IMG/VR virus record: IMGVR_UViG_3300035162_003119
Coordinates: 1 to 37,150 of that record
Reading direction: 5' to 3' (one strand)
DNA from: a virus
Length of the DNA: 37,150 nt
A model generated the notes under the pieces. That model ran no database searches and was not told the origin of the DNA. It worked only from the letters and a program-made list of their open reading frames with translations. Both the position numbers and the translations under genes were made by a program. Positions 20,201 through 37,150 of this stretch are shown piece after piece; within the stretch, counting starts at the first letter, position 1, and each line of letters opens with the position of its first letter.

Positions 20201-23200
20201 AGACGGTGAAGACATTCGGCCAGCCTAATGGGGCGATCTCAAACAACGCTCTCGGGGACATTCCCAACATCATCGACGTAAGCGTCAAGGACAGGCTTCC
20301 ACGGGGTCGTGTCTGGGCCTACTACCCGAACGGGTCCAGTGCTCTGGAGACTGCGCTTGGGCTGACCGCTGGAGCCACCACAGGCAAGGCTACGCTCGTT
20401 CTGACCGTCCTGACGATGGATCAGTTTCCCATTGACCCCGCGACAGGGTTCCCTGACATTGACCCTACGACAGGGTTGATCCTGCCTCCTGTAGTGCCTG
20501 GGAATCCCGGCACAGGCGTCGTCTACTCGCTGGTGACAGGCAACCCTGACATAGCCACTCCAGCCTTTGAAGTGGGTCAGCGGGTCAACTACGGTAAGCC
20601 CGACGGGACTGTCTACTCGCTGAGTGACAGCCTGGGTAACGGCATCTTCATCGAGCAGGTGCTTGCGGGTTGCGTCGTCACACTGGCGACCAGTGACGGA
20701 GCAACCACTCCCGCGTTTACCTCGGTGGCTGGTAGCAACGTCTACACCGACAAGGACACCCTGACGAACCTCGATGGCGTGATCTCACCCGACAACGGCT
20801 ACTCGGACACGATGTACGTCGGCACCGGCGTGGGAGTGGACCCCATCGGTGACCCGCCCACGACCGCTGAGTTGACCCTGCTTGCGGAGTCGATGCCTGA
20901 GTACAGGCAGTTTTTCGATGTGGGGCTTCAGCGCAAGTCCGGTGACATCATCGACATCACGTTCCCAGGACCCGACGACAACTTCTTCCTGAACCTCCGG
21001 GCGATCTTCGGCCAGAACCCGCCTGACCCGCTCTCGTGCGTCGAAGGCACGGTCAAGTTCATCAACACGGCCTCGGAGCCACTTCAACTGCCGTGCCTGC
21101 TTGGCGAGGACAAGGACGACTCGGGTGACCAGCAGATCCCGTTCCTGCGCGGGACCCCGAACGAACTCACAGTGCTGCGCGAGGTTCAGCCCCTGCTGGA
21201 AGACCTCTACGTGGACACCACACTCACCCTCCCCTATGCTCCCGTGTACTACGACGATGCTCTCGGGTTGGGCACGGTCGCTGTGGTCGAGCAACAGAAC
21301 TTCAGTGCGGTGTACCCGAACGAGACCCTTGTCGGCGACGGTGCCCTCTACGAGAGCGCGACCTACATTGGCTACCCTCAGAACCCAGCCACGCTCTACA
21401 CGGCTCGCGATCTGAATGCGGCAGCCGTGTCCCCAACGGGATCCCCGGCAACGGGAACGGGCCTCGGTGATCTTAGGCGCTTCGATCTGCTGTTTTCTCA
21501 GGTCAACCAGACCGCCGTTGACCCTGCGTGGCTGGGCATGACGGGCATCCTGGATGTCGGGGACGTGGTCTACGACGCCTCGGGGTCCGGCACTCGGGCA
21601 TCCATCGAGATCCCACGCTTCGTGTCCCCTTGCGAGAAGGGCCAGATCCACAACTACACGTTGCTGGGCTGGGCGGCCTACGTCTCCGAGAGGGACATCA
21701 ACCCCGGTGAAGGTTTTGAAGTGTCCGTGGCGCTGAACCCGGCACCAAACCAGTTCACCTCGACGCTGTTGTTCAACAGTGTCACGGACATGCCTGACCT
21801 GAGTCTGCTGACCCCTCTGTTGGTGAACAACAACGCCTTCGTGATCCGCATTTACGACCCAGATGCGTTGGCAGCGGAAGCCTTCATCGGAGCCATCACC
21901 TTGATCTCAGGGTCTGGTGCTGCGGTAAAGCACTACTTCTACAACCACGCAGCCGGAACCATCACCACACCGAGCGTACTGGTGGCACCCACCTACGGGC
22001 CTACTGGGATCCTGATCCAGTACGACATGGCTCTCACCCCGACGCCGACCGACCCCCTGGAGACCGTGCTGGGACTGGTGCCCGGTCAACGCTACGATTT
22101 CCGGCTGGACATCGACACCTATGGGGCTCTCCCCACGACCAACGTGTCCTCGGCTGCGTTGGCGGGGGCACTCTATGGCTCCGACTCCTGTGCAGTGTTG
22201 CGTGATCGGCTGACATTCACGGAGGAGTTGGACCTCACGATGGCAAAGCCGCGTGACTACCTCCCTGCCAACGACGATGCCTACGAGATGGGTGCATCGT
22301 TGGATGTGGCCGAGTTCACGGCCAACGGGGTCTCTGGGCTGACGGCAAACCGTAGACAAGAGATCAACGGAGGCAGCCCCCTCTCATTCCTCAACCGCTA
22401 CAACACGACTCCTCAGTTCTATGTTGGCACCTACGACGGCACAGACGGGCGGCTCCGAGCCATGTCCTGGGAAGGGCATGGCAACCTACCTCTCCCGGCT
22501 GAGATCACCGACCTCCTCCTCTCCAGTGCCCCGTCCTCGGACGGGGACACCGGGGGAGAAATCCTGGAAGGCACCTTCCAGTTCTGGGACGGGGGATCAA
22601 GCCTCACGCCCGTGGCCACGGGCGTCGGTGCCTATGAGCGAGAAGGCAACCGCAACTACCTCTCCACAGTCACCGAAACTCTCGGAGCGGGCGGCAACGT
22701 CCTCGCCGGGGACATCTGTGTGGTGACTCAGAACCCCAGCGAAAATGGGGCGGTCAAGACTGGCTCGTACCTCGTGCGCCATGCCGTTCCGTTTGGGACA
22801 GACATCTGTGAGGCTGCCTCCAGCAACTTCGGAAACGCCCGACTTCTGGCTGCACGACAAGGGCCGGATGCCGCAGACCCCTTCCCTGCGGCTCAAGCAC
22901 CGTCGAAGCAACCTCGTGTAGACCTTGGCACTGGCGTAGCGTCCGTGCCTCCTGCTGGGCAAGGCTGCCTGGACCTGACCTCCCCCACGATTCAGGCGGT
23001 CACTGTGCTTGGGACGAGGATCACCCTCGCCAACGTGGTTCCAGTCACCGGGTCGGCTACTGGTTGCGGTTGGGAGAACCCCGCGACGGTCGGCCCTTAC
23101 CGTCTATATCTGGTGCTCAAAGACCAGTATGCCACCTACAGCGACGATGCTGGCGGGCCAGGTGTGCCGGGCTGGGTTGTGGACGCAGACGCAGTATGGT

Positions 23201-25695: not shown

Positions 25696-25737
25696 CCTCG
25701 GTAGTGTGGCTGTATGCCAAGAGCAGTGGGAGACCCC

Positions 25738-25971
25738 ATGGATGACATCGAAGAAATCAAGCAACGGTTGAAGGAGATGGGCATCCCCTTCAACGGCGAG
25801 TGGGGTGCAACGACTAAGCGGACCAACATCGAATCCCCCATGGTCAGGAAACAGAAGGTGGCGTTGCACCGTTTGGAAGGCATCCTCCAAAGCCAGTTGG
25901 ACCAAGACCAGGAGAAGGTGGCAATGCTCCATGTTCAACTCCAGCGCCTAAAGAACGGCGGGGGTTCATAA
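25738..25971 (+). CDS. Small helical coiled-coil protein (77 aa)
   Basis: I chose the ATG at 25738 because GGGAGA lies just upstream; the in-frame ATG at 25714 has no ribosome site. The protein starts MDDIEEIKQRLKEMGIPF, continues with a polar middle, and ends in a long helix with heptad-like spacing (HRLEGILQSQLDQDQEKVAM). The stop TAA touches the ATG of the next gene. It lies between two very large tail genes, so it may be a small assembly factor or a baseplate bridging subunit. No family is recognised. The preceding gap 25696-25737 is only 42 bases and shows no clear promoter or terminator. Confidence 0.6.
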   Translation: MDDIEEIKQRLKEMGIPFNGEWGATTKRTNIESPMVRKQKVALHRLEGILQSQLDQDQEKVAMLHVQLQRLKNGGGS

Positions 25972-28569
25972 ATGGCAGAGAAACCCAAGGACTGGCTCGT
26001 AGTTCAGCCGAGTCTGGATCCCATCTTGGCGGTCCCAAACGCGGTCATCGGCACCCTCGACTCGGTGCTGTCCTTCATGATCACGATCCTCAACATCACC
26101 AACGTGATCCTCAACGTGGTCAAGGTGTTCCTCGTTGGGCTGCTCAACCCGATCAGAGCCATCGTAGAGGCCATAGTAGAAGAGATCAGGGCGTTCTTCC
26201 ACGATCTCAGGCAGTTGGGGATCTACCTCACTGGCGACTGGAGCCTCATCGAAGTCAAACCCGTTAATCGAACTGAAGAACTGCTTGGCGGCTACGAAGC
26301 CTACGAGCGCCGAATGCTCAAACGGCTCCTGAACCGCAAAGACCCCGGACGACCAGACTTCACATCGCGGTCGGCGTGCATCGCCTTGTTCACTTACCGT
26401 TCGTCGGGGGATGTTGTCACCCTGATCGAGTTGATCAACCGCATCAAGGCGTTCTTCGGAGCCGGGGGGGAGACCAAGGGAGCACCTTACGCCGCTCCGA
26501 CCGTACCTGAGGCTGAGTTCCAGACCGCGACCTCAATCCTTCGGCAGCCCCTCCCCAACTTGGGGGGTCCACCCACGAAGGTGGTCTTGACCTGGGCAAT
26601 GCCCGGCACGGGGTCGCTGTTCAGCGACCCTCCTGCGGGGTTTCTCGTCCACGTTTCCACGGTGCCCAACGGCTTCGGGGTGCGGACGATGATGTTCGAT
26701 GCCAGGGGCGAGGCGGATGACGTTGTGGCTCCCGGATACCAACCGTCGGTCGGAATCGACGCAACCACGGGGTCAGAGTTGCGGCTTTTCGGTGGGGTCA
26801 GCGACCTCTCGACAGAGTTCTCTGACTTCAGCGACGTTGCGCGGGACTCGCTCCAAGCCAACAAGTTGCTGTTGTCATTGGACCAGAACACCCCGTTGAT
26901 CCCACCAGGCGAACTTCTGGTGGACGGCGGAGTTCCCCTCGGAGGGGCTACCTACTTCGTCAAGGTCAGCGGGTTCAGCAAGGCGGTTCCTGGTCAGTCT
27001 TACTCGGCGACCCTGAACTACGAAGACCTCCCGCAAGCCATCGCTGTGGAGGCAGACGGCAGTGGTGGGGTCACGGTCAGCGGAGAGGACTGCTACACGT
27101 TCTACGCACGAGCCAGGCCCGTCACGAAGACCTACGCAGATGCCCTGGGTGATGTAAAGGAAGGGACATCGAGAGCCCCTGCTCTCGTTGGCGGCGAAAC
27201 TCTGAAGTTGAATCACTGGTCCAACAAGCAGATCACCGCTAACTCCTCGGCTCTGTTTCTCCCGACGCCGGGCGCACCAGGACCGACACCTTCCTCAGAG
27301 GTCACTGCTGGGGAGGTTGGCCCAGCCTCAGCCCCGGCTGTGTTTAGTATGCCGACGGCTGCTGCAATGGATCTGGTCACGGCGACAATAGTGGCGTTGG
27401 AGATCCTACTCTTGGTCCGCGTTGATCTCACAGAGGTAACAGCCGCCATGGGGGGATTCGCATACGGTGCCAAGAACACCTATGAACCAGGGGCAGCGAC
27501 TGGCCTGGAGGCTTTCAGGGATCAGATGACCTCGATGGAGGTTGATCTATCCGTCTTCTACGAGCAGACGGACTCCAAGAAGTTTCGGCGAAGGGTCCGC
27601 CGCCTGTGTCGGCAGTCCGCCACCCGGAAGTTCCTGCAAGCGCCCTCAGAGTCCATCGCGGCTACCGTTGCAGAGCAGGTGCGGACCCTCCTCGACTTCA
27701 AGTGGTCGGATATTGACTCCAGGTGGCCCGACTACAGCATCCTGGAGACCATGTCCAACCAGAGTGGGACGTGGGGCGTGGCGGCCAACCCGATGGGAGC
27801 GGGTCTGACGGAGATGTCGGGACGGCTCCGTCGCGGAGCAACCGTCGGGGGAGAAGACCTATGGTTGAGCCGCGAGGGGCTGTTCCCCCCCAAGGTGTTC
27901 TCGTCCGGCACGACTACGCCAGAGGCCCTGGCCAGGGCTGGCCTACCACCTACTGGCTGGTACCAAGGCCAAGGCTACTCCGACTACTGTCCTGTGTTGT
28001 TCAGCACCCTCGACGAAGCAAGCACCGCTCTGCGCCCCCTCTACATGCAGTTCGTCCGACGACTGCTCATAGACTACGACGGAGGCAGTATGCTCCAAGC
28101 AGCGTCGGTGGTCCTGGGCATCGTTGCAGCCCCCGATGCCCCGTCACCCTCCGAGACCGAGTGGCTATCGGTAAGGTTCCTCGACGATGCTCTCGCCCCT
28201 CTTGATGCCCTGCTGGTGGATGTCGAGAAGTACCTACTTGCGATCCTGGACGGTCTAAAGGGCACGATCGACAAGATCGTTGCTTACATTGAGGCTATTC
28301 AGGCCCGCATCTTCCAGGTCCAAGCCCTTATCGAGATGATCCGTGCGCTCCTGAACTCGCTCTCGATGTTTAGCCTGCCGTCCTTTTCGGGGCTGTTGCT
28401 CGTCGAAAACGGTACAGATGGGATCACGAGGGGGTTGATCACCGCAGGGAACAAGCCTTCAGACTCAGCATTGTCCTACGGAGGCGGTGTGCTGGTCATG
28501 GCGGGAGGTCTGCCTGTGATCCTGCTGGAGATTCTTGAACTGATCCTCGGTGCCGAGGGAGGTGAGTAG
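25972..28569 (+). CDS. Large tail/baseplate protein with amphipathic helices at both ends (865 aa)
   Basis: The ATG follows the previous TAA directly. Residues about 20-80 form long hydrophobic or amphipathic helices (SFMITILNITNVILNVVKVF; RAIVEAIVEEIRAFFHDLRQ). Residues about 195-230 look like a fibronectin-type-III strand series (TKVVLTWAMPG, PAGFLVHVSTVP). The central part is beta-rich to about residue 400. Then comes a helical, basic part with RRRVRRLCRQSATRKF near residue 542, and residues about 743-800 are again long helices rich in Ile/Leu/Ala (KYLLAILDGLKGTIDKIVAY, QVQALIEMIRALLNSL). Such proteins occur in large-phage tail modules; the repeated helices may be buried in a wedge or fibre core, not membrane-spanning. 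The role is inferred from position between the giant gene and the fibre region. Confidence 0.6.
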   Translation: MAEKPKDWLVVQPSLDPILAVPNAVIGTLDSVLSFMITILNITNVILNVVKVFLVGLLNPIRAIVEAIVEEIRAFFHDLRQLGIYLTGDWSLIEVKPVNRTEELLGGYEAYERRMLKRLLNRKDPGRPDFTSRSACIALFTYRSSGDVVTLIELINRIKAFFGAGGETKGAPYAAPTVPEAEFQTATSILRQPLPNLGGPPTKVVLTWAMPGTGSLFSDPPAGFLVHVSTVPNGFGVRTMMFDARGEADDVVAPGYQPSVGIDATTGSELRLFGGVSDLSTEFSDFSDVARDSLQANKLLLSLDQNTPLIPPGELLVDGGVPLGGATYFVKVSGFSKAVPGQSYSATLNYEDLPQAIAVEADGSGGVTVSGEDCYTFYARARPVTKTYADALGDVKEGTSRAPALVGGETLKLNHWSNKQITANSSALFLPTPGAPGPTPSSEVTAGEVGPASAPAVFSMPTAAAMDLVTATIVALEILLLVRVDLTEVTAAMGGFAYGAKNTYEPGAATGLEAFRDQMTSMEVDLSVFYEQTDSKKFRRRVRRLCRQSATRKFLQAPSESIAATVAEQVRTLLDFKWSDIDSRWPDYSILETMSNQSGTWGVAANPMGAGLTEMSGRLRRGATVGGEDLWLSREGLFPPKVFSSGTTTPEALARAGLPPTGWYQGQGYSDYCPVLFSTLDEASTALRPLYMQFVRRLLIDYDGGSMLQAASVVLGIVAAPDAPSPSETEWLSVRFLDDALAPLDALLVDVEKYLLAILDGLKGTIDKIVAYIEAIQARIFQVQALIEMIRALLNSLSMFSLPSFSGLLLVENGTDGITRGLITAGNKPSDSALSYGGGVLVMAGGLPVILLEILELILGAEGGE

Positions 28570-29373
28570 ATGCCTTCGTTCTCCTCCCAAGGGTACTTCC
28601 GTGAAGGCCAGTGGCGTGCCATCCGGTCCTTCGCCTTGCGCGAGAGGCGGGATTTCTCGACGCGCTCGATGGTCATCACCGCCGAGATGCAGCGCATCGG
28701 GAAGATCGAACTGCTGTACGGGCGGGACCTGATCACTGGAAAGGTGACCCAGCAGCGCGTGGGTGTTGTCCTTGAGGGCAGCAGCACGAGCAGCATTGGG
28801 AAACTCCTCACAGCCTACTGCGCGTTGGGGGGCAACCCGCTGGACATCAGCATGTTCCTGTACCCCAACAACCCCGACCTCCCCGGCGAAGGGTCAGCCT
28901 ATCCCAAGGGGTTTACCTACTCGCTGCAAGGGCAGGAGGAGGACGAAGACAGCAACATCGACAAGTACAAGCCTTCCCGTGTCGGAGGTACACGGGAGAC
29001 CCCCTCTGAGATCACGAGCGCAACAATGGGACTGCTGCGCGAGCCGATTATCAAGGAGATGTACCAGAAGCGGATCCTCCTGGAGGAGCGCATACTCAAA
29101 CTGGCAGACCTCTACGAGCAACTGGAAGAGGAGCAGACGCTCATGCTCCGAGGACAGGGGAGAGGGAACATCGGACAGCAGGCATGGTCACCGGAGAAGT
29201 ATGACAAGGGGCACAGCATCCCTTGCATCGTGTACCTGTTCGACAGCACCTTCCGCACCGCCGGGACTGACGGGCGTGTCCCTGCCGAATCCCCGCTCAA
29301 CATGACCAACCTGGGGCCTCTGCCGCAGTTGCTCACAGACGTTCTGCCAGGAGAGGGCAACAACGCACTGTGA
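28570..29373 (+). CDS. Tail-module protein of unknown function (267 aa)
   Basis: The ATG directly follows the preceding TAG. The N-terminal half is mixed alpha/beta (FREGQWRAIRSFALRERRDF; KIELLYGRDLITGKV) with GGNPLDISMFLYPNN near residue 97, a phrase I associate with structural proteins of large phages. An acidic loop (EEDEDSN) follows, then a long coiled-coil-like helix at about residues 153-196 (LLEERILKLADLYEQLEEEQ). The C-terminal part has YDKGHSIPCIVYLFDSTFR, a beta segment. It is the last of the directly abutting tail genes, so likely a virion component or wedge-associated protein. I do not recognise the family. The 45 bases after it hold only a weak hairpin and the next ribosome site (AGGAGA). 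Confidence 0.55.
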   Translation: MPSFSSQGYFREGQWRAIRSFALRERRDFSTRSMVITAEMQRIGKIELLYGRDLITGKVTQQRVGVVLEGSSTSSIGKLLTAYCALGGNPLDISMFLYPNNPDLPGEGSAYPKGFTYSLQGQEEDEDSNIDKYKPSRVGGTRETPSEITSATMGLLREPIIKEMYQKRILLEERILKLADLYEQLEEEQTLMLRGQGRGNIGQQAWSPEKYDKGHSIPCIVYLFDSTFRTAGTDGRVPAESPLNMTNLGPLPQLLTDVLPGEGNNAL

Positions 29374-29418
29374 TCCGGTATCTCTCCTATCGCTGTCACA
29401 GGGACAGGAGACTGCCCC

Positions 29419-29766
29419 ATGAAACCGGACCCCACCTCGGTCGTCATCCGTTTCGCCAAGAAGTGGAAGAAACTCCCTCCGGGATGGACAGACAAGTCCG
29501 TGGAGAAGTTCTGGAAGACGCTGGGCAAGGGCACGCCTGAGCACAAGGTGTGGAACTGCGTCGAGAAGATGGACAAGCCTTTTGGCGACGGTGCCGGTGC
29601 CTTCTGCGGGGGTCTCGCTGACTGGCAGATGCCTGGCTGGCGCAAGAAGAACAAGAAGGAATCCCCCGAGGCTCGCTCCGATGCGAAGTCCTACTGGAAG
29701 GGCAAGATTAAAGGCAAGAAGGCAAGCGCGGTTCGTGTAGCCCTTCGTCACGCAGAGGGAGCATAA
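29419..29766 (+). CDS. Small basic protein ending in KASAVRVALRHA (115 aa)
   Basis: ATG with AGGAGA upstream. The protein is very Lys-rich (about one in five residues) with several Trp (KKLPPGWTDKSVEKFWK). The middle reads VWNCVEKMDKPFGDGAGAFC, resembling a short Cys...FC-x-x-L segment I have seen near phage maturation-type proteins, but there is no protease catalytic pattern. The C-terminal tail KASAVRVALRHA closely matches the N-terminus of the protein at 31617. High positive charge fits binding to DNA or to acidic virion proteins. It could be a minor virion or head-core protein; the function is unknown. Confidence 0.55.
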   Translation: MKPDPTSVVIRFAKKWKKLPPGWTDKSVEKFWKTLGKGTPEHKVWNCVEKMDKPFGDGAGAFCGGLADWQMPGWRKKNKKESPEARSDAKSYWKGKIKGKKASAVRVALRHAEGA

Positions 29767-29767
29767 A

Positions 29768-29944
29768 ATGGACATGATCACCGTCACCAATGATCTCGGA
29801 ACACCCATCGGTAGCGTGCAGCGCATCGAAACGGGCCGGTCGAGCACCTTCTGGAGAGCACTGACTCTCACAGGTGAGCGTATCCAAGACTGTCCAACCC
29901 AGGCTGAAGCGGAATCCGCTGTAGCCGCACACGCAGGGGCTTAG
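29768..29944 (+). CDS. Small hypothetical protein (58 aa)
   Basis: ATG one base after the previous stop; ends in TAG two bases before the next ATG. The product begins MDMITVTNDLGTPIGSVQRI and ends with a helix (TQAEAESAVAAHAGA). The pattern of an N-terminal beta-hairpin, a central TFWRALTLTGERI strand pair and a terminal helix is that of a small compact domain. Its tight packing between two genes supports it as real. No family recognised. Confidence 0.55.
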   Translation: MDMITVTNDLGTPIGSVQRIETGRSSTFWRALTLTGERIQDCPTQAEAESAVAAHAGA

Positions 29945-29946
29945 TC

Positions 29947-31605
29947 ATGGCTATCGTTCTACGGGTAACCGGCACAGGCACTCTCGGTGCCTCCATGTAC
30001 GTCACGGACGTATATCCAAACCGGTACATCGCCAACGCCGGGACCGAGGACTTCAACTACACCTCGGATGTGGCGCGGTCCTTTGAGACAGGTGCTCTCT
30101 CTATCTGGATCGCCCAAGGTCACCTGACCACGGCGGTCGTGTTGGGGGCCACCTTTGAGGACGCGGTGGCTGTGACCACCGAGAACGCAGGTGTGGCTGT
30201 CGAGACTGAGACACGCACGATCAACTTCGTTGGTGCAGGTGTCACGGCTGCTGCTGTGGGCGCAAATCAAGTCGATGTGACTATTCCCGGAGGCGGAGGT
30301 GGTGGTGGCATGACCAGCATCGACTTCGGCACTACGGGGTTGACCCCCGCCGTAGCAACTGGTGGCGTGGTCGCTGTCGCAGGCACCCTCGCCGTCGGCA
30401 GTGGTGGAACTGGGATCACGACCGCCCCAAAAGGCACGGTGTTGGTCGCCAATGCTCTGGACACGATTTCTGCACTGGCGGGAGCCGCCGACCGGGACCT
30501 CCCGACCTACACCGCAGGAACCGACGACATCACGATGCGCTCGATGTCCACAGGATCAAGCGGGCTTGCCTACGGTGCAGTCGGTGGCGCAACCATGTTG
30601 ACGTTCACCCGGAACACCGCCGGGGTTCCCCCGCAGTACGCGACGGGAGACAACACCGCAGTGTTGTTCCAAGACTGGGGCGGCACCGGGCAGGACTTGA
30701 GCGGTTCTGTACTGACGCCTCTGACAGGGCTTCTGCCCAACGTCCAACTGGCGGGTCGGATCACGACCAACACGACGACGACGAGCACCTCGGGAACTCC
30801 TCTCCTCTACAACCTCCTGCCGGGCGATGTCGCACCGGCAGGTGGAACCGGGCTGACCCTCGCCATCTTCGGCGCAGGGGCGAACGTGACCTCGGTGGTG
30901 GCTACACCAGTCCCCGATAACTTCAACACGGGCACCGGGTACAACTCGGGTGATGTGATCACGATCCCACAGGCGGATATTCCCGGCTCGGGCAACGACC
31001 TCATCATCACGCTTGTAGACGCTGACTTCACTGGGAACGGTGTTCAAGGCGTCTTCATGGGCGGCTACAACAGTGGCGGCGTGATCGCTGACATGGGTCG
31101 TGGAAGCATTGTATCTCTGGACGGGTCGGTCAGTGTCGTCGGTGAGAACGGGATGTCCAACCGCTCGGAAGGCTCTGTTCAACTCCAGACAGTATCGGCT
31201 CCAGCCCTCCACATTTCCTATGTGGCTGGTGAAACCCTCGCCGTGGGGGATGTGTTGAAGTTCGGCTTGAATGCCAGCGGGGAAACCGCAGGACGCGCCT
31301 ACCAAGCCCAAGCGGACACCCTCGCCAACTCTGGGGTGGTCGCCGTAGCGAGGTCTGCTGGAATCACAGCGGGCAGCGTGTCATGCGTCGTCGCGGGCGA
31401 AGCGTCAATGACCTTTGATGTGGTTCCCGCCGCGAATGACAACGGCAAGCCTGTATATCTGTCAGCAACCGCAGCACAAGCCACACTCACTGCACCGGCA
31501 GGGGGTGGAACCTTCACGACTGAGATCGGTCGCCTGACCGGAGGCGACGGGGCATCCAACCCCGTGACCGTGCTCCTGTCAGTCCGTCCTACCGTGTCGA
31601 ACTAA
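29947..31605 (+). CDS. Tail fibre or decoration-like structural protein (552 aa)
   Basis: Residues about 90-121 have RTINFVGAGVTAAAVGANQV, DVTIP and a run of seven Gly, a module frequent at the N-terminal side of phage tail fibres ('INF-GAGVT' type followed by a glycine hinge). The middle is Thr/Gly/Ser-rich beta sequence typical of fibrous trimers (VVAVAGTLAVGSGGTGITT, TSTSGTPLLYNLLPGD). The last ~130 residues (from AGETLAVGDVLKFG to the end) resemble phage decoration or fibre-tip beta-domains of the DUF2190 type: GD start, GVVAVA, GEASMTF, GKPVYLSA, a final IGRLTG. There is no chaperone or hydrolase motif. It likely forms a host-contact fibre or a surface decoration; the gene order after tail genes favours fibre. 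Confidence 0.65.
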   Translation: MAIVLRVTGTGTLGASMYVTDVYPNRYIANAGTEDFNYTSDVARSFETGALSIWIAQGHLTTAVVLGATFEDAVAVTTENAGVAVETETRTINFVGAGVTAAAVGANQVDVTIPGGGGGGGMTSIDFGTTGLTPAVATGGVVAVAGTLAVGSGGTGITTAPKGTVLVANALDTISALAGAADRDLPTYTAGTDDITMRSMSTGSSGLAYGAVGGATMLTFTRNTAGVPPQYATGDNTAVLFQDWGGTGQDLSGSVLTPLTGLLPNVQLAGRITTNTTTTSTSGTPLLYNLLPGDVAPAGGTGLTLAIFGAGANVTSVVATPVPDNFNTGTGYNSGDVITIPQADIPGSGNDLIITLVDADFTGNGVQGVFMGGYNSGGVIADMGRGSIVSLDGSVSVVGENGMSNRSEGSVQLQTVSAPALHISYVAGETLAVGDVLKFGLNASGETAGRAYQAQADTLANSGVVAVARSAGITAGSVSCVVAGEASMTFDVVPAANDNGKPVYLSATAAQATLTAPAGGGTFTTEIGRLTGGDGASNPVTVLLSVRPTVSN

Positions 31606-31616
31606 GGATGAACCCC

Positions 31617-32102
31617 ATGCTCAAAGCCAGCGCAGCCCATGTAGCCCTCCGATTCGCAGTCCGTACTGCTCCTCCCTTCGCGTACCGCAAGCACCACGAG
31701 AGCCGACACGCCAGCACCAACACCGAGCGGGACTTCTACAAGGCCACGGACGGCCAGTGGTACGTGGACAACGAAGAATACAACGAGGACGAGGACGGAG
31801 AGCAGACCGAAGGTGACATGACCTCCTACGGGCCGTTCCCATCGTTTGAGGCCGCTGATAAGTACATGAGCCGCAACTTCGCCAACTCAGGAGGCTATGG
31901 AGAGGATGACAGCGGGCGGCAACGACCACCGCGCAAGCCGGTCTCCCCACGCGGACGACGTTGGGCCTTCAGTGGCAGCCCACTCATGCTACAGCCCGAC
32001 TACGGACACGGCGATGCAGCCGTCCCAGGAGATCAGGAGTACCACCCCTGCCAGAACGGTGGCCCGTGTCAGTGTGGCGGTCAGTGTGGCTGTGGCAAGT
32101 GA
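31617..32102 (+). CDS. Protein with KASA motif at N-terminus and Cys-rich C-terminal tail (161 aa)
   Basis: I prefer the ATG at 31617 because AAGGA lies eight bases upstream; an ATG at 31608 would overlap that site. The N-terminus MLKASAAHVALRFAVR is amphipathic and resembles the C-terminus of the 115-aa protein. An acidic middle (YNEDEDGEQTEGD) follows. Residues about 60-85 read FPSFEAADKYMSRNF. Then comes a basic, disordered part and a terminal tail with five Cys in 15 residues (C145, C151, C153, C157, C159), in the pattern CxCxxxCxC with glycines. That tail could bind metal or make disulfides. No known family; it may be a minor virion protein. Confidence 0.55.
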   Translation: MLKASAAHVALRFAVRTAPPFAYRKHHESRHASTNTERDFYKATDGQWYVDNEEYNEDEDGEQTEGDMTSYGPFPSFEAADKYMSRNFANSGGYGEDDSGRQRPPRKPVSPRGRRWAFSGSPLMLQPDYGHGDAAVPGDQEYHPCQNGGPCQCGGQCGCGK

Positions 32103-32105
32103 GGG

Positions 32106-32128
32106 CAACAGGATGATCCTCCCTGTTG
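32106..32128 (+). other. 7-bp inverted repeat in the intergenic gap before the transglycosylase
   Basis: caacagg (32106-32112) and cctgttg (32122-32128) are exact complements with a 9-base loop, right after the stop of the preceding gene. There is no T-run, so an intrinsic terminator is weakly supported; it could be an RNA processing or stability hairpin. The rest of the 65-base gap (32103-32167) holds only the AGGAG site for the next GTG. Confidence 0.35.
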
Positions 32129-32167
32129 GGTAAGGCATAGACATGTCAACCCCAGCAGGAGTCAGCA

Positions 32168-32752
32168 GTGTTCGATAGCCTTCAGAAACGCCAAGAGGTT
32201 GTCCTGCCTGCGCTCGCGGCGCTGATGTTGGGCTTGTGGTTGAGCATCCCTGAGAAAGAACATGAACCCCCGCCCCTCTTATGGGAGGACACTGCGCCAC
32301 CCGAGATCATCCCGGAACCCGCTGAGGACTTCGCACAGCACTGCGACATCGAGCCTCCACCCGACTTCAACCGCATGGTGGAGGCAGCCGGGGAGGCCAC
32401 AGGGATCAACCCCCGGCTGATCGCACTGACGGTCTACCGAGAGAGCCGCTGCAAAGTGGATGCCCTCGGAGCCGTGGGAGAGATCGGTCTCGGACAGGTG
32501 TACCCAGACATCTGGACTCAGGTTCTCGTCGAGGAGGGGATCATTGAGTCGGTGGGCGACCTATACGACCCAGAGGTCAACCTGCGTGCAACCGGCTTCA
32601 TCCTCAGTGAGGTCCTGCGGTACGCGAAGGGAGATCCCGCAGATGCACTCCGAAGATACAATGGCAGCGGTTCCGCAGCACGGAGATATGCCCGTGAACA
32701 GTCTGGAATCTACCAAGCCATGTGGGGAGAGCCTGTCTGGTTCCGTCGGTGA
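32168..32752 (+). CDS. Membrane-anchored lytic transglycosylase (SLT domain, 194 aa)
   Basis: GTG start with AGGAG six bases upstream. After KRQ, residues 11-27 (VVLPALAALMLGLWLSI) form one membrane segment; a Pro/Glu-rich linker follows to about residue 65. The rest is an SLT/goose-lysozyme-like domain: LTVYRESRCKVDALG with E92 as the expected catalytic acid, GEIGLGQV (104-111, the usual G-x-x-G-L-x-Q-V/I), DPEVNLRATGFI, and YNGSG (164-168). Such enzymes cut the MurNAc-GlcNAc bond in peptidoglycan, forming 1,6-anhydroMurNAc. Topology is N-in with the catalytic domain in the periplasm. It may be a lysis enzyme released from the membrane (SAR type), or act in wall remodelling; placement after the fibre genes fits lysis. 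No holin or spanin is seen nearby. Confidence 0.85.
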   Translation: MFDSLQKRQEVVLPALAALMLGLWLSIPEKEHEPPPLLWEDTAPPEIIPEPAEDFAQHCDIEPPPDFNRMVEAAGEATGINPRLIALTVYRESRCKVDALGAVGEIGLGQVYPDIWTQVLVEEGIIESVGDLYDPEVNLRATGFILSEVLRYAKGDPADALRRYNGSGSAARRYAREQSGIYQAMWGEPVWFRR

Positions 32753-32888
32753 TCTGAGCCTGTGTGGTCCTGCACTGCGCTCCAACGCTACCTGTGACTG
32801 GGGAGCCTGCTCTCAGACCGCAACGCAAGCACGACGATGGAGGAGCCAGTGGCTCCCCGTCTGCGGGGGGTGCGCGACCAAGCCCTGA
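32688..32888 (+). CDS. Small zinc-finger-like protein overlapping the transglycosylase gene (66 aa)
   Basis: The frame overlaps the last 65 bases of the transglycosylase gene in another phase. ATG at 32688 is preferred but weak; ATG at 32661 is possible. The C-terminal half reads ATCDWGACSQTATQARRW then WLPVCGGCATKP: CxxxxC, about 17 residues, CxxC, with Trp residues, which resembles small zinc ribbons that phages often carry. Beyond the overlap, the sequence is otherwise non-coding, which supports a real gene. Its stop (32886-32888) overlaps an ATG in frame with the next zinc-ribbon gene. Function unknown; zinc binding is inferred. Confidence 0.55.
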   Translation: MPVNSLESTKPCGESLSGSVGDLSLCGPALRSNATCDWGACSQTATQARRWRSQWLPVCGGCATKP

Positions 32889-32926
32889 TGCGCCACGGGT
32901 ATTGTGGGGCTCACACGGAGTCCCCC

Positions 32927-33118
32927 ATGCCCCTCTTTGAATACCGTTGCGCGAAGTGCAGCACCGAGTTTGAACGGCTCGTGGCTCCCTCCCAGCGTGA
33001 CGCACCCCAGAAATGTGCCAACCCGAAATGCGAGTCCACGGAAACCAAGAAACTGGTGTCGCGGACTTCCTTCTCCCTCAAAGGGGGAGGCTGGGCCTCG
33101 GATGGGTACTCGGAATGA
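32927..33118 (+). CDS. FmdB-type zinc ribbon protein (63 aa)
   Basis: The start at 32927 gives the family's characteristic N-terminus MPLFEYRCAKCSTEFERLV and has CGGAG six bases upstream; in-frame ATGs at 32888 and 32837 are alternatives. C8 and C11, then C30 and C35, form the expected four-Cys zinc site. The C-terminal FSLKGGGWASDGYSE matches the short 'F-x-L-x-GGGW-x-x-DGY' ending of FmdB/CxxC_CXXC_SSSS-type ribbons. Members occur widely in bacteria and phages; a regulatory role is suggested by name, but the molecular job is largely unknown. Its stop overlaps the next start (ATGA). Confidence 0.8.
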   Translation: MPLFEYRCAKCSTEFERLVAPSQRDAPQKCANPKCESTETKKLVSRTSFSLKGGGWASDGYSE

Positions 33119-33288
33119 CCGGCAACCCCCTGTTCGCCAGATTCCCAGAGCGATTCCAGTGGACGTTCCACAACGTCGTCGCCCACCCGCTGTCCGAGGT
33201 TCTATTCCAGATAGGCTTTGAGGACGCGGGCAACCGGCTCCACGACTGGAGCATCCCCCAGCATGACCCCGGAACGGGTCGAGGTTGA
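33115..33288 (+). CDS. Conserved-looking small phage protein (57 aa)
   Basis: ATGA overlap with the zinc ribbon gene sets the start. The sequence has PERFQWTFHNVVAHPLSEVL then FQIGFEDAGNRLHDWSIP. I recall small phage proteins with the same 'W-x-x-HN-x-x-AHP-x-x-E-x-L-F/Y' and 'LHD-x-T/S-IP' phrase order, with no known function. Two His clusters and no Cys are present; it could be a small membrane-surface or metal-binding protein. It is followed five bases on by the lipoprotein gene, with no terminator between. Confidence 0.65.
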   Translation: MTGNPLFARFPERFQWTFHNVVAHPLSEVLFQIGFEDAGNRLHDWSIPQHDPGTGRG

Positions 33289-33292
33289 TAAA

Positions 33293-34570
33293 ATGAACCA
33301 TCGTATCTTTTTGCTTCTCCCCCTCCTGGCCTTTACCGGCTGCCCTGAACCTAAGCCCCCGACGCCTCCTGTACCTGCGACCTGTGAGGCTGATCCCAAC
33401 TGGATCACCAACCCTTCGATGCCGGGCGAGGTTCCCGAGGCGGAGTCCTTCTGCGACTTCTACCAGTTCTCGTGGCAGTGGTTCCTTGCACAGGCAAGCC
33501 CCAGCGGATCGGGTGACCCCGTGTTCATGCAGAACAGGGTCTACTCCCCGACGGGCGGCAATGACCAGTGTGCTGATCCGCCAATCACGGGCGTCCTGGG
33601 AGCCATGAGCCAGTTGGTTCCACGGCAAGGCAAGCCCAACAACTTTGAGGACGCCCAGGCCGACGGCAACGCGCTCTATGACCAGAACGGCAACATCCTC
33701 TACTACAACGCCTTCTACACACAGGCGTACTGCTCCTCGACCGCTGCGGGCTTCGCTCCTGGGTCGATGGAAGCGAAGGTCTCATGGGTGGTGCTCAAGG
33801 ACGGGCCTGATCCCACCTACTACACCATCAGTGCCTCGCTGCCAGATCAGGAGGAAGAAATCACCCTCGGCCTGGTCGGACTGCATCTGGCGATCTGGAC
33901 CCCGAACCATCCCGAGATGATCTGGGCCACCTGGGAGCACAAGACCAACGCGCCTCTGTGCAATGGCACCAGTGCCGCTTCAGGCTGGTCGCTGGCTTCC
34001 GACAATGCCTCCGCGTGTCTGGCAGCCAACGTATCAGGGGCAACCACGGGGGCTCCTGATCCTTCCTGCAACGACTACGGGTTCAATGTCCCTGCGGTTC
34101 ATCCCACGGGTGCTGCACCCATCACAGGTGCCCCCATCAACGTCTGTCGGCAGTATGCCCACGGCAACCAAGACGGGGAAGCCATCAACGGCAACGACAA
34201 CGGGGCGAACCTCGCAGCGATCACTGAACTCAACGAAGCCCTTGTTGGCACCGAGGGGCTGATCACCACGTTGCCAGGGGACAACCCTTTGTCGGTGTGG
34301 TCCAACTACGAGATGGTCGGCGCACTCTGGACGAAGGACGGAGCCGACTCCGGGCCGCCTCCGGTTCCCAGCCTGCAATCACAGGGCGCGGGCGATGCGG
34401 ACAGCCCTCAGCGCGGCTCGTTGGAACTCACCAACATGACCCTGGAGACCTTCCAGCAGGGTGACACCTCGGCAATCCCGAACTGCTTCGGGTGCCACAA
34501 CTACACAGCGGCAAGTCCTCTGGATGTCTCGCACATCCAGTCCAAGTTGCTTCCTGCTTCTGCGGAGTGA
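33293..34570 (+). CDS. Predicted lipoprotein with a single CxxCH haem-type motif (425 aa)
   Basis: ATG at 33293 with GAGG eight bases upstream; the frame stays open further upstream but only this start gives a signal peptide: MNHRIFLLLPLLAFTGC with C17 as lipidation residue, then a Pro-rich linker. The domain begins near residue 35 with many aromatics (FYQFSWQWFLAQ). Landmarks: KVSWVVLKDG, then LGLVGLHLAIWTPNHPEMIW with ATWEHKTNAP, a long Gly/Ala/Asn part, SVWSNYEMVGALW, LTNMTLETFQ and finally NCFGCHN (C398, C401, H402). I recall bacterial 'cytochrome c family' proteins with the same order: VGLH, W-ATxEH, NYE-VG-xW, N-T-METY, then CxxCH. It is probably exported and lipid-anchored in the periplasm, with covalent haem if the host's maturation system acts on it. 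No heme axial partner is obvious. In a phage it is unexpected and likely host-derived. Confidence 0.7.
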   Translation: MNHRIFLLLPLLAFTGCPEPKPPTPPVPATCEADPNWITNPSMPGEVPEAESFCDFYQFSWQWFLAQASPSGSGDPVFMQNRVYSPTGGNDQCADPPITGVLGAMSQLVPRQGKPNNFEDAQADGNALYDQNGNILYYNAFYTQAYCSSTAAGFAPGSMEAKVSWVVLKDGPDPTYYTISASLPDQEEEITLGLVGLHLAIWTPNHPEMIWATWEHKTNAPLCNGTSAASGWSLASDNASACLAANVSGATTGAPDPSCNDYGFNVPAVHPTGAAPITGAPINVCRQYAHGNQDGEAINGNDNGANLAAITELNEALVGTEGLITTLPGDNPLSVWSNYEMVGALWTKDGADSGPPPVPSLQSQGAGDADSPQRGSLELTNMTLETFQQGDTSAIPNCFGCHNYTAASPLDVSHIQSKLLPASAE

Positions 34571-34575
34571 TCCCA

Positions 34576-34607
34576 GGTAGGGGAGTCCTGATCAGGACTC
34601 CCCTACC
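34576..34607. terminator. Perfect 32-bp palindrome between convergent operons
   Basis: ggtaggggagtcctga (34576-34591) is followed at once by its exact reverse complement (34592-34607). It lies five bases after the lipoprotein stop and includes the stop of the convergent gene, so a bidirectional transcription terminator is likely. There is no T-run on either side, so factor-dependent arrest or a protein-binding site remain possible. Confidence 0.7.
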
Positions 34608-34828
34608 GGCTGGGTGGCGGTTGCTACTCGTACCTGGTTTTCTGTGTTGACGAGTTCCCACAACACCTTCACGAACTCGTGCATCTCGTCTTCGGTGAGG
34701 GTGTCCGTCATCACGGCGATCTCGACGCTGATCTTGATCAGCAGAGCGATGACCTTCGCGGGCTCCTCCCCGGAGTGGGCAGCCTGAAGAACCGCTTCAT
34801 GGATGTTCTGGAAAGGGTCTGCAATCAC
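34592..34828 (-). CDS. Small helical protein, last gene of the left-going operon (78 aa)
   Basis: GTG start with GGAGG five bases upstream on the - strand. The sequence is nearly all helix, with NIHEAVLQAAHSGEEPAKVI, an Ile/Val/Leu-rich amphipathic segment (ALLIKISVEIAVM) and LTEDEMHEFVKVLWELVN. It could be a small dimeric helix-bundle protein. The stop TGA is the centre of the palindromic terminator. An 18-base gap separates it from the gene before; no family recognised. Confidence 0.65.
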   Translation of the reverse strand: MIADPFQNIHEAVLQAAHSGEEPAKVIALLIKISVEIAVMTDTLTEDEMHEFVKVLWELVNTENQVRVATATQPVGES

Positions 34829-34846
34829 GCCTGCCTCCGCCTCGAT

Positions 34847-35134
34847 TTAGTCTTGGCTCTCTTGGAGGTGGCTCCAAGCCGCCTCCAAGAGAGGGTCTGG
34901 TTCGTGTACGCTATCTCCTGGCTGCCAGAGAAAGAAGTCATCATCGGTGACCTTGGATTCGGGAGCGGGCGCGATAGGGGCTGGTGCATAGGGTGCATAG
35001 CCTCCGAGGCCCTTGTCTCTGACCTGCACCAACCCTTCCGGGTCGATCCCCGTGAGATCAACGGCTTCTGTGTCCGGTCGGGACTTTGCCCAATCCCGCA
35101 TTGAACCGACGACGCCTTCGGGTTTACGGCTCAT
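34847..35134 (-). CDS. Small hypothetical protein (95 aa)
   Basis: I prefer the ATG at 35134, which overlaps the previous stop (TAATG) and has GGAGA upstream; a longer frame to 35191 lies within the preceding gene. The start MSRKPEGVVGSMRDWAKSRP is basic, then comes a turn-rich part with a GGYAPYAPAPIAPAPES segment (Ala/Pro-rich, likely flexible) and a DDDFFLWQPGD motif followed by a short helix (LLEAAWSHLQES). Composition suggests a partly disordered adaptor. Function not recognised. Confidence 0.6.
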   Translation of the reverse strand: MSRKPEGVVGSMRDWAKSRPDTEAVDLTGIDPEGLVQVRDKGLGGYAPYAPAPIAPAPESKVTDDDFFLWQPGDSVHEPDPLLEAAWSHLQESQD

Positions 35135-35412
35135 TATGCTTCTCCCTGACGATGTAAGTAGTCGAGAGCCTTGTCGGTATCCCACGCGCACGCATCCAAG
35201 GCTTTCTTTGCGTCGGCGACATACGCACCAGACTGCTTACGGACCCACTTGACAGCGTGTGCCTTGTCCCAAGGGGACATCAGGTCCAGTGCGGTGACTA
35301 CGGCGTCAAGGTCGGAGCCCGCCGCTGCGGTGAGTTCGTCAAGAGTGATCGCGTCACCCACAGAGAACTCCCGGTCGAGGTGCTCCACCTCGATCTCAAT
35401 CGTGATCTTCAT
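35134..35412 (-). CDS. Small protein with EF-Ts N-terminal (TS-N/UBA-like) domain (92 aa)
   Basis: Start at 35412 overlaps the previous stop (TGATG); an upstream ATG at 35424 is less likely. Residues 1-50 begin with an alternating strand (KITIEIEVE) and a short helix. Residues 53-90 read VRKQSGAYVADAKKAL then WDTDKALDYLHRQG, which matches the N-terminal EF-Tu-contacting domain of elongation factor Ts without gaps; against E. coli EF-Ts from memory I count 13 identities in 38, including R, G-A, D, KKAL and the final G. In EF-Ts this three-helix UBA-like domain binds EF-Tu. The rest of EF-Ts (the core and its TDV-F region) is absent. A role in binding EF-Tu, or another UBA-type partner, is inferred. 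Confidence 0.65.
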   Translation of the reverse strand: MKITIEIEVEHLDREFSVGDAITLDELTAAAGSDLDAVVTALDLMSPWDKAHAVKWVRKQSGAYVADAKKALDACAWDTDKALDYLHRQGEA

Positions 35413-35651
35413 CAGATGACCCACCCGCGCTCACGCATCTTTTGGTGGTTGGGGCTCGACACCCGACCTTCCCACTCGTGACCACAGCCTTTGGTGGCGT
35501 GGACCGGGTCAACACCCTCGGGGCAAAAGCCGCCGCACCGGAGGGTCGCCTTCATGTTCATATCCAGTGTCTCAGGATTATGAGCCTTCACAATGAGATC
35601 GGTGTACTGGACGACACCACACTTCGGGCATCGGTTGAGTCGTTCAGCCAT
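35412..35651 (-). CDS. Zinc-ribbon protein (79 aa)
   Basis: The ATG overlaps the end of the preceding gene by eight bases. RCPKCGVVQY (C8, C11) and a later C39-x3-C43, with C56 and H58 following (GCGHEW), give a plausible zinc ribbon with the second knuckle irregular. The first helix-less part is short and the C-terminus is basic (PNHQKMRERGWVI). Likely a small zinc-binding protein with a nucleic-acid or protein partner; no named family. Confidence 0.7.
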   Translation of the reverse strand: MAERLNRCPKCGVVQYTDLIVKAHNPETLDMNMKATLRCGGFCPEGVDPVHATKGCGHEWEGRVSSPNHQKMRERGWVI

Positions 35652-35925
35652 CGTCTTGCTCCATCGTATCCAGACTACCCGTCGTGACTTTCCACTCGAT
35701 GATCAAAGGCAAGCCGTCACCGATGGGGTGGTAGCCGATGCTCCCGCCGCCGCCGTAGTGGATGGGGGCGTGAGGCTCACCCAGCCGCTCCCGTAGGTGA
35801 GCCGTGGCGATCTCCACATAGTCGAAGTCCGGGGTCGCGATCTCGTAGGACACGATCAAGTCCCGCGTCTCCAACTGGACGTGGTACAGCGGCATGAGGT
35901 TGGGGTCTTCCCACGGGTGGGTCAT
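35644..35925 (-). CDS. Small hypothetical protein (93 aa)
   Basis: ATG overlaps the previous stop (ATGA, 35922-35925). The sequence is beta-rich: LYHVQLETRDLIVSYEIAT, then DYVEIATAHLRERLGE, a turn-rich GGGGSIGYHPIGDGLP and a strand IIEWKVTTG. This looks like a compact alpha/beta domain with a Gly-loop. I recognise no family. It shares an operon with zinc-ribbon and duplicated-module genes, so a host-takeover or regulatory role is possible but unsupported. Confidence 0.6.
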   Translation of the reverse strand: MTHPWEDPNLMPLYHVQLETRDLIVSYEIATPDFDYVEIATAHLRERLGEPHAPIHYGGGGSIGYHPIGDGLPLIIEWKVTTGSLDTMEQDDG

Positions 35926-36371
35926 TCGTCGCCCCCCGCTTCGCTCTGGAGTGAGGTCGCCAGAATCCGCTTGTCCTCGATCTTCGTGATCTCCTCGGCC
36001 ACCTCGCTGGGACGGGTCACGAACGGCCAGACTGGGTCGTCGTTGAGCAGGTCTTCCTTGGTGATCGTGACCGTGGACTTGATCGTGAATGTGGTAGGCA
36101 TGAGGACGGTCTTTCCGTCCTTCGTCTTGCGGATCCGTTCGGGGTTGTCAATGCCGATGCCGACGATCTCGGTGGCAGACCATTGGATCAGGGTCTTCGC
36201 GTGATCCCGAAGTTTCTCGTGCGCTGTAGCGCCAACTCGGACGCGGACGGCGATGGAGGACTCGGGGTCAAGGCGGTGAGCAAACCGCGCTGCACTCTTT
36301 TGATCCTTCTTGCGTGTTGCACGACAAGCGAACAACACCCAGCCCAACTCCTCTGGAGTTAGGTCGATCAT
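35922..36371 (-). CDS. Hypothetical protein with the SATEIVGIGIDNPER module (149 aa)
   Basis: ATG overlaps the previous stop (ATGA). Residues about 1-60 are helical and basic (TPEELGWVLFACRATRKKDQ). Around residues 62-92 is a module WSATEIVGIGIDNPERIRKT followed by DGKTVLMP, shared with the neighbouring 99-aa protein. After it come strands (FTIKSTVTITKEDLL) and a polar end. Position in an operon of overlapping small genes and the shared module suggest a family of duplicated phage proteins. Function unknown. Confidence 0.65.
   Translation of the reverse strand: MIDLTPEELGWVLFACRATRKKDQKSAARFAHRLDPESSIAVRVRVGATAHEKLRDHAKTLIQWSATEIVGIGIDNPERIRKTKDGKTVLMPTTFTIKSTVTITKEDLLNDDPVWPFVTRPSEVAEEITKIEDKRILATSLQSEAGGDE
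36097..36186 (-). repeat. Direct repeat copy 1 (90 bp), module of the 149-aa gene
   Basis: Aligned without gaps to 36555-36644, with 81 of 90 bases identical. The copy encodes the module described for the 149-aa protein. Differences fall mainly at third codon positions, so the protein is conserved more strongly than the DNA. Confidence 0.9.
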
Positions 36372-36667
36372 TCCTCACCGCTCACGACACCACTCACGAC
36401 AACGCCCGAAGTGCCGAGGAACGCAGACTCGCCGTCGTCGGATACGAGACCTCGCACACCGCCATGGTCGATGGGGAACTTCAAGGGAGTTACCCGCACC
36501 ACTTCTCGCTCGGGTGGGGTCCACTCGGAGATCACGCCGATAGGGTAGTCGGACGGCATGAGGACGGTCTTGCCGTCCTCCGTCTTGCGGACCCTCTCTG
36601 GGTTGTCGATGCCGATACCGACGATCTCGGTGGCAGACCACTGGAAGCGGGGCTTGTCGTCGGACAT
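36368..36667 (-). CDS. Hypothetical protein with the SATEIVGIGIDNPER module (99 aa)
   Basis: I choose the ATG at 36667, which overlaps the previous stop (TGATG) and has AAGGGGG upstream; a TTG codon three bases before is the only longer option. The module FQWSATEIVGIGIDNPERV then RKTEDGKTVLMP sits at the N-terminus here, whereas in the neighbour it is central. The remaining part reads GVISEWTPPEREVVRV, then a Gly/Val-rich C-terminus (GTSGVVVSGVVSG). The tail of the neighbour differs, so one gene likely arose by partial duplication. No known function. Confidence 0.65.
   Translation of the reverse strand: MSDDKPRFQWSATEIVGIGIDNPERVRKTEDGKTVLMPSDYPIGVISEWTPPEREVVRVTPLKFPIDHGGVRGLVSDDGESAFLGTSGVVVSGVVSGEE
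36555..36644 (-). repeat. Direct repeat copy 2 (90 bp), module of the 99-aa gene
   Basis: Partner of 36097-36186, in the same orientation and 458 bases away, 81 of 90 bases identical with no gaps. It could serve as a site for recombination that would delete the intervening part of the two genes. Confidence 0.9.
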
Positions 36668-36873
36668 CAATCCCCCTTCAACACATCGAGAGATGCGTAC
36701 AAGTCGCCCATGACCTTCGCGTCCATGTCCTTCTGAACACCCCCGCCCATGACGGACTCGGGGCCACCGAACATAGGCTGGGTGTTTCTCGTGCGGCGTC
36801 GGCGGGCGGGTCGGGTCACGACCTCGACTTCCTGGCCATCCTTGCCTGTGACTGTTTTGATCATCTTGCTCAT
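36667..36873 (-). CDS. Small basic protein (68 aa)
   Basis: ATG overlaps the previous stop (ATGA, 36870-36873). A short beta N-terminus (MIKTVTGKDGQEVEVV) is followed by a strongly basic RPARRRRTR patch, then a flexible Gly/Met-rich part (MFGGPESVMGGG) and an acidic helix. The basic patch suggests nucleic-acid or acidic-protein binding. No family recognised. Confidence 0.6.
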   Translation of the reverse strand: MSKMIKTVTGKDGQEVEVVTRPARRRRTRNTQPMFGGPESVMGGGVQKDMDAKVMGDLYASLDVLKGD

Positions 36874-37136
36874 CCGAGGCTCACTATTGCGGGGGTCACT
36901 ATTGCGGGGGTCAGGAACTCGGCAGCGACGAGGTCATGTGCCTTGGCCTCTGCCTGCCAGAGGGACGCGGCGCGGACATGAACATGCACGGCATCCAGGT
37001 GATCCTCGTCCGTGTACCACGGAGTCAACGGATCACCGTTGGCTGGGTTGGCATCGGAAGGCCGAGGCGGAATCCGCCCCCCGTGGAGTTGGACTTGGAG
37101 GTCGTTCCCTGAGCGGGTGAAGTAGTACCAGTGCAT
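36870..37136 (-). CDS. Small hypothetical protein (88 aa)
   Basis: ATG at 37136; AGGA seven bases upstream is at the window edge, so more genes may lie further right. The start MHWYYFTRSGNDLQVQLHGG is beta-rich, followed by a Pro/Asn turn region, a strand (DAVHVHVRA) and a helix (LWQAEAKAHDLVAAEF). It ends with TPAIVTPAIV, two identical units. It resembles small phage early proteins in size and gene packing; function unknown. Confidence 0.6.
   Translation of the reverse strand: MHWYYFTRSGNDLQVQLHGGRIPPRPSDANPANGDPLTPWYTDEDHLDAVHVHVRAASLWQAEAKAHDLVAAEFLTPAIVTPAIVSLG
36881..36910 (-). repeat. 15-bp perfect tandem repeat, two copies
   Basis: tcactattgcggggg occurs twice back to back (36881-36895 and 36896-36910), giving TPAIV twice near the C-terminus of the 88-aa protein. 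The exact copies suggest a recent slippage event; copy number may vary between relatives. Confidence 0.9.
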
Positions 37137-37150
37137 GATCCCATCCTACC

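Follow-up and report, generated by a model that had tools for sequence, protein, structure and literature searches.

A predicted haem lipoprotein gene of bacterial origin that closes a phage late operon, with probable distant kinship to cytochromes P460 and c'-beta

Our analysis points to a phage gene, the last of its late operon, that was probably derived from a host and kept as an accessory gene, and whose product, an envelope haem lipoprotein resembling cytochromes P460 and c'-beta, would bind small ligands or carry out redox chemistry late in infection. The stretch of DNA analyzed, hereafter the window, is a 37-kb IMG/VR record of 37,150 nucleotides and is probably a fragment. The preliminary description had noticed a haem-type CxxCH lipoprotein in a late operon; its presence in a true phage, as the last gene of that operon, was confirmed. 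We place the protein near the P460/c'-beta superfamily, as a distant relative that has a large insertion, and class its gene as a phage auxiliary-type gene; it was not filed as a P460 proper because the curated threshold was not reached and the activity is only predicted. The features of the gene are as follows.

33293..34570, plus strand: gene encoding the P460-like haem lipoprotein of 425 aa (open reading frame and translation)
33281..33284, plus strand: Shine-Dalgarno-like GAGG, 8 nt 5' of the ATG (sequence)
33293..33343, plus strand: lipoprotein signal peptide with lipid-acceptor Cys17 (sequence; lipobox in phage copies)
33761..33778, plus strand: Gly157-x4-Lys162 (hhalign, position check and literature; Lys162 invariant in 67 sequences)
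33878..33925, plus strand: Gly196-x-His198-x12-Trp211 (invariant columns; spacing read manually)
33941..34453, plus strand: insertion of about 170 aa, lacking in classical P460s, that separates the Trp strand from the CxxCH segment (deduced from the model, the alignment lengths, and the spacing of the motifs)
34484..34498, plus strand: haem c attachment motif C398-F-G-C401-H402 (sequence and family conservation)
34532..34534, plus strand: invariant His414 in a C-terminal Ser-His (alignment column)

Positions 33293 to 34570 are a real gene with a good ribosome-binding site. Its lipoprotein signal sequence is MNHRIFLLLPLLAFTGC, with the lipid Cys at residue 17 as had been proposed, and the close phage copies carry the lipoboxes LAGC, LAGC, and LVGC (L001, L002, and the N-terminal fragment of L003). 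Since the residue at position +2 of the lipid Cys is Pro, the Asp inner-membrane retention signal is absent. The order of phrases read earlier in the protein (VGLH, WATWEH, NYEMVG, NMTLETF, and NCFGCHN) is also as claimed. Residues 398 to 402 form the sole CxxCH of the 425-aa protein, and such a motif arose by chance in 0.56% of composition-shuffle trials. This motif, on whose conservation the preliminary description had staked its haem reading, is kept in close and distant relatives alike, being present in 87 of 87 relatives with an open reading frame that reaches the C terminus; the single family open reading frame that lacks it comes from the broken L003 gene and covers its N-terminal part. 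It mostly lies 23 to 60 residues from the C-terminal end, and about 80 to 117 residues from it in members with C-terminal extensions; in several members (e.g., L031, L033, and L035 to L039) the distance is about 90 residues. A mannan-binding lectin domain (MVL; PF12151, best E value of 7e-12) was found in 9 of the 67 members of alignment A2, such as those just named, where it is probably the C-terminal extension behind the haem motif, pointing to a putative extracellular location for this subset.

Structural models were compared for the phage protein and for a distant bacterial member of its family, L066, which AlphaFold2 predicted with pLDDT values of 89.8 and 85.7, respectively. In the VIA comparison, ranks 1 to 14 for the phage model were all P460 or c'-beta structures (Z scores of 6.0 to 4.5; next fold at 3.6), as were ranks 1 to 17 for the L066 model (6.1 to 4.8; next fold at 3.4), and the matches spanned about 126 to 144 residues, almost the whole target. 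Foldseek also returned P460 or c'-beta structures at ranks 1 to 7 for the L066 model (best E value of 0.014, probability of 0.90); for the phage model it gave no significant match (best E value of 0.13). Both kinds of cytochrome, P460 and c'-beta, bind haem c in a beta-sheet protein whose CxxCH is C-terminal (PMC6427953, PMC11928373). The phage protein has its one CxxCH close to the C terminus and resembles them in its beta-sheet at the level of the fold only, with Z scores of about 6 that are moderate and come from two models.

The sequence comparisons gave a fainter picture. The Pfam family matched by most members is PF16694 (Cytochrome_P460), with 13 of 67 members hitting it below threshold (best E value of 0.013) and the window protein giving no match at the cut-off. 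Aligned by hhalign with a partner set of P460s recovered from genomes, GFAPGSMEAKVSW paired with the P460 segment PWPDGAILxKxVW, and Gly157-x4-Lys162 with Gly73-x4-Lys78 of the Methylococcus P460 (counted on the PDB alignment). According to the cited P460 literature, Lys78 is the haem cross-linking lysine of that protein, and few residues other than Gly73 and Lys78 are common to all 144 P460s studied. The real pair reached an E value of 0.001, compared to at least 0.18 for 11 shuffled or reversed decoys. When the insertion was spliced out, the hhalign probability rose to 47%; decoys with the CxxCH tail scored equally well, so sequence alone is no proof of P460 kinship. Indeed, the P460 sequence signal lies mostly in the CxxCH tail, and a P460 HMM gave the members weak scores that were partly above the controls, one reversed control scoring 10.4 bits. 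A manual reading suggests that Gly196-x-His198-x12-Trp211 may correspond to Gly82-x-Met84-x12-Trp97 of c'-beta, a pairing absent from the hhalign alignment. Mainly from the two structural comparisons and the collinear lysine motif, kinship with the P460s is likely.

With cytochrome P460 (PF16694; Methylococcus capsulatus and Nitrosomonas; PMC11928373, PMC6427953) the phage protein has in common the single C-terminal CxxCH, predicted export, and the best structural matches, and its conserved Gly-x4-Lys aligns with the P460 segment that holds the haem cross-linking lysine, the cross-link and any hydroxylamine oxidation being putative here. In contrast, it has 425 residues including the insertion of about 170 aa, whereas the P460s have about 140 to 160, and it is a lipoprotein without a sequence match at the curated threshold. 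Furthermore, no acidic residue was found at the distal carboxylate position, which on manual reading is occupied by Gly196. Cytochrome c'-beta shares the predicted fold, ties for the best Z score (6.0 to 6.1), has a putative NO-binding role, and agrees in the Gly-x-Met/His-x12-Trp spacing on manual reading. However, the phage protein is larger and has Lys162 where McCP-beta and TtCP-beta have Phe61, and the sequence likeness is recognizable at the haem motif alone.

The window protein had no match in Pfam, PHROGs, PDB sequences, or 50,697 phage records, and NCBIfam gave just a meaningless transketolase match; the family profile (alignment A2) had no match among PDB sequences either. By tblastn (E value of ≤1e-3), 344 relatives were found among 84,980 species genomes, and distant copies were seen on proteobacterial plasmids. 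The nearest bacterial relatives belong to the Lysobacteraceae (52 to 59% identity), a family in which 38 of 297 sampled genomes carry a member. The window protein has conserved bacterial relatives; the profile searches proposed earlier gave it no family name. Because the genomes were scanned with a single peptide pattern, W[ATS]T[FW]E[HF]xxNA, the conservation of Trp211, Thr213, Glu215, Asn219, and Ala220 is partly by construction; CxxCH, which is not in the pattern, Lys162, and His198 are unaffected. Lys162 is invariant across 67 sequences, and the window protein keeps 38 of 39 bacterially conserved columns, including C31, C54, K162, H198, W211, C398, C401, H402, and H414.

In a maximum-likelihood tree (quick search, SH-aLRT support), the four phage copies form one clade (SH-aLRT of 100) nested in an 11-row clade (SH-aLRT of 100) in which every remaining row belongs to the Lysobacteraceae or Lysobacterales. 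The phylogeny that had been suggested as a check thus sets the phage genes beside Lysobacteraceae chromosomal genes, and a single acquisition from a Lysobacteraceae-like bacterium would be the simplest reading. Pairwise dN/dS ratios among the phage copies were 0.11 to 0.26, approximate values because dS is high. Purifying selection, which is looked for in a phage auxiliary or moron gene, was therefore found with the same approximation. The retention of the haem-site residues under such selection favors a role that would require haem.

Syntenic relatives of the window's tail genes occur in G001, G002, and G003, viral records of 205, 44, and 159 kb, respectively, and all four records carry the haem lipoprotein gene, in keeping with the earlier suggestion to look for it in related phages. 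G001 encodes a major head protein, baseplate wedge, DNA polymerases, helicases, ribonucleotide reductase, and thymidine kinase; G003 encodes a terminase, portal, baseplate wedge, clamp loader, and UvsX. The terminase was found with PHROGs, the Pfam terminase model PF03237 having no match in these phages. Taken with the tree, these hallmark genes and the synteny show a cellular gene within a genuine phage genome, as is looked for in an auxiliary or moron gene. In both the window and G001, the gene is preceded by those for the transglycosylase and the zinc-ribbon protein; it directly precedes the tail gene cluster in G002 and lies elsewhere in G003, where it is split by a TnpB-encoding insertion and an adjoining segment of about 130 bp is inverted (L003:7881-10519). 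Among the 47 searched IMG/VR records with the window's conserved 799-aa structural gene, only G001, G002, and G003 have it; it is absent from the other 44, including relatives of 297 and 150 kb. The broken copy and these absences indicate that the gene is dispensable; it is accessory and stands outside the phage core. Elsewhere in the window, a GTG-started open reading frame of 3,830 aa (14203-25695) had no Pfam or PHROG match and is conserved in two of the related records, at 74% over 1,335 aa for G001 and 44% over 2,472 aa for G002, and the first open reading frame holds a 12-bp tandem repeat, GCCCAACAGGAG, at 174-243 (5.8 copies). Host prediction from spacers in the 297 genomes yielded no host, the four matches of about 32 to 43 nt lacking CRISPR repeats.

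The gene is the last of a plus-strand tail/lysis block, in the following surroundings.

32168..32752, plus strand: upstream neighbor, SLT transglycosylase/endolysin-like, with an N-terminal hydrophobic segment (PF01464, E value of 1.7e-8; phrog_342)
32927..33118, plus strand: upstream neighbor, FmdB-type zinc-ribbon (PF09723, E value of 9.7e-11; G001 homologue 77% identical)
34576..34607, plus strand: perfect 13-bp inverted repeat GGTAGGGGAGTCC-TGATCA-GGACTCCCCTACC (sequence; 6 nt past the stop codon)

The order of the zinc-ribbon gene is maintained in G001. A terminator search at the gene end found no canonical terminator, the inverted repeat having no T-run; the segment from 34568 to 34625 has a folding energy of -34.8 kcal/mol (z of -3.3), the likely genes 3' of the repeat lie on the opposite strand, and the repeat is probably a hairpin ending the late operon. 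An open reading frame of 57 codons at 33115-33288 (MTGNPLFARFPERFQWTFHNVVAHPLSEV...) overlaps the zinc-ribbon stop and has no counterpart in the matching G001 gap.

Several other explanations were weighed. A contig of host DNA misfiled as viral would accord with a gene that the tree makes clearly bacterial in origin and with the few recognizable hallmark genes of the window; nevertheless, tail genes are common to the window, G001, G002, and G003, head, portal, terminase, baseplate, and replication genes accompany them in G001 and G003, and window positions 25001 to 37150 without this gene gave trivial short matches only in eight Lysobacteraceae genomes. Synteny across the four records refutes misfiling, to which we assign almost no probability. 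The single CxxCH, the export, and one relative annotated as cytochrome C would also suit an ordinary soluble-type electron carrier of the class I cytochrome c kind, held by a lipid anchor. This is highly improbable: the model is a beta-sheet whose best matches are P460 and c'-beta, the CxxCH is C-terminal rather than N-terminal, and PF00034 had no match in the window protein and one, below threshold, among the 67 members, so that the class I combination of PF00034, N-terminal CxxCH, and helical fold is not found. Of the earlier assignment to the cytochrome c family, the predicted exported, lipid-anchored CxxCH haem protein stands and class I membership falls, the predicted core being a P460/c'-beta beta-sheet.

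The bacterial gene neighborhoods bear on two further explanations. Across 89 bacterial and plasmid loci (L005-L093), LodA was found in 28, LodB in 25, and a GMC oxidoreductase in 2, and 6 of them, in myxobacteria and others, share a conserved neighbor protein without a Pfam hit, which we take to be VioB-like; these neighbors, which include oxidases of amino acids or other substrates, suggest that in bacteria the family may take part in surface chemistry involving peroxide or redox reactions. LodA and LodB adjoin the family in about 30% of the bacterial loci, and the accessible part of the account of the LodA/GoxA operons (PMC4417212) does not mention a haem-lipoprotein neighbor. The family could thus take electrons from, or mature, LodA/GoxA-type CTQ oxidases, with the phage copy serving a host oxidase, and a tyrosinase-family neighbor annotated in L012 would agree with this. 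However, no LodA, GMC, or VioB-like neighbor was seen in the Lysobacteraceae loci nearest the phage genes, and none adjoins the phage gene, which makes such a partnership very unlikely. The Lysobacteraceae homologue instead lies between a TonB-dependent receptor gene and pncC, in a mutS-recA neighborhood (names except the receptor read from sequence), and in all 6 loci of sufficient length the receptor gene is directly upstream of it. From this, together with the outer-membrane type lipoprotein signal and the patchy, accessory distribution of the phage gene, one could argue for superinfection exclusion or receptor masking, in which the phage copy would occupy the receptor partner of the host homologue on the outer membrane and block adsorption, the haem being structural or incidental. 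We consider this unlikely: a gene placed in the late operon would more readily serve late in infection or in the virion than in early exclusion, the haem-site residues are strictly kept under purifying selection, and the known exclusion lipoproteins are small, the phage protein being far larger. The roles named in the preliminary description, an auxiliary metabolic gene, a superinfection block, or a receptor mask, cannot be separated by sequence.

The preferred reading, a host-derived late gene for a ligand-binding or redox-active haem lipoprotein, would proceed as follows. A large-phage lineage would, once and long ago, have taken a Lysobacteraceae-like chromosomal gene and kept it as an accessory late gene. 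From its motifs, the product is expected to leave the cytoplasm through Sec, to receive its lipid at Cys17, and to acquire one c-type haem at C398/C401-H402 from the host cytochrome c maturation (Ccm) system, with sorting to the outer membrane. Its haem domain would be a beta-sheet like that of P460 and c'-beta but with a large insertion, placing Lys162 at the position of the P460 cross-link lysine, and a pocket of this type would serve for ligand binding or catalysis (NO, CO, or hydroxylamine) and not as an electron wire. In the late phase of infection, at the outer membrane or beneath it, the protein may bind NO, hydroxylamine, or peroxide or convert them by redox chemistry in the envelope, and the respiration of the infected cell may in this way be protected or sustained until lysis. 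That it is a working P460-type enzyme, tethered to the envelope with a lysine cross-linked haem and turning over hydroxylamine or NO or using peroxide during infection, is quite unlikely; if so, it would be the first phage member to found a new branch of the P460 superfamily marked by the large insertion, a branch found in many bacteria and frequently paired with quinoprotein oxidases.

Viral norB and nirK (PMC8115048) and the soxC and soxD genes of sulfur-oxidizing phages (PMC8190135) are precedents for redox auxiliary genes; these are likewise host-derived, with purifying selection argued for them, but they are annotated enzymes of known pathways, unlike the haem lipoprotein. Two phage SoxD proteins (PMC8190135) lack one or both cytochrome c motifs, whereas all haem lipoprotein copies reaching the C terminus keep CxxCH. 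No description of a phage P460-like protein was found in the open-access literature and no classical P460 in the phage records; a PF16694 search of 28 lineage records, in which no positive control gave a signal, gave no match.

Overall, these results define a large bacterial haem-lipoprotein family, previously without annotation, that is present in hundreds of species genomes and has a probable P460/c'-beta core. A predicted c-type haem protein, and not just an enzyme of a mapped pathway, has been retained in a phage lineage with its haem site intact, suggesting that the phage may alter redox or nitric-oxide chemistry at the host cell surface. Since P460s and c'-beta cytochromes handle hydroxylamine and NO, phage control of nitrogen-oxide and redox chemistry in the envelope would be testable with one protein.
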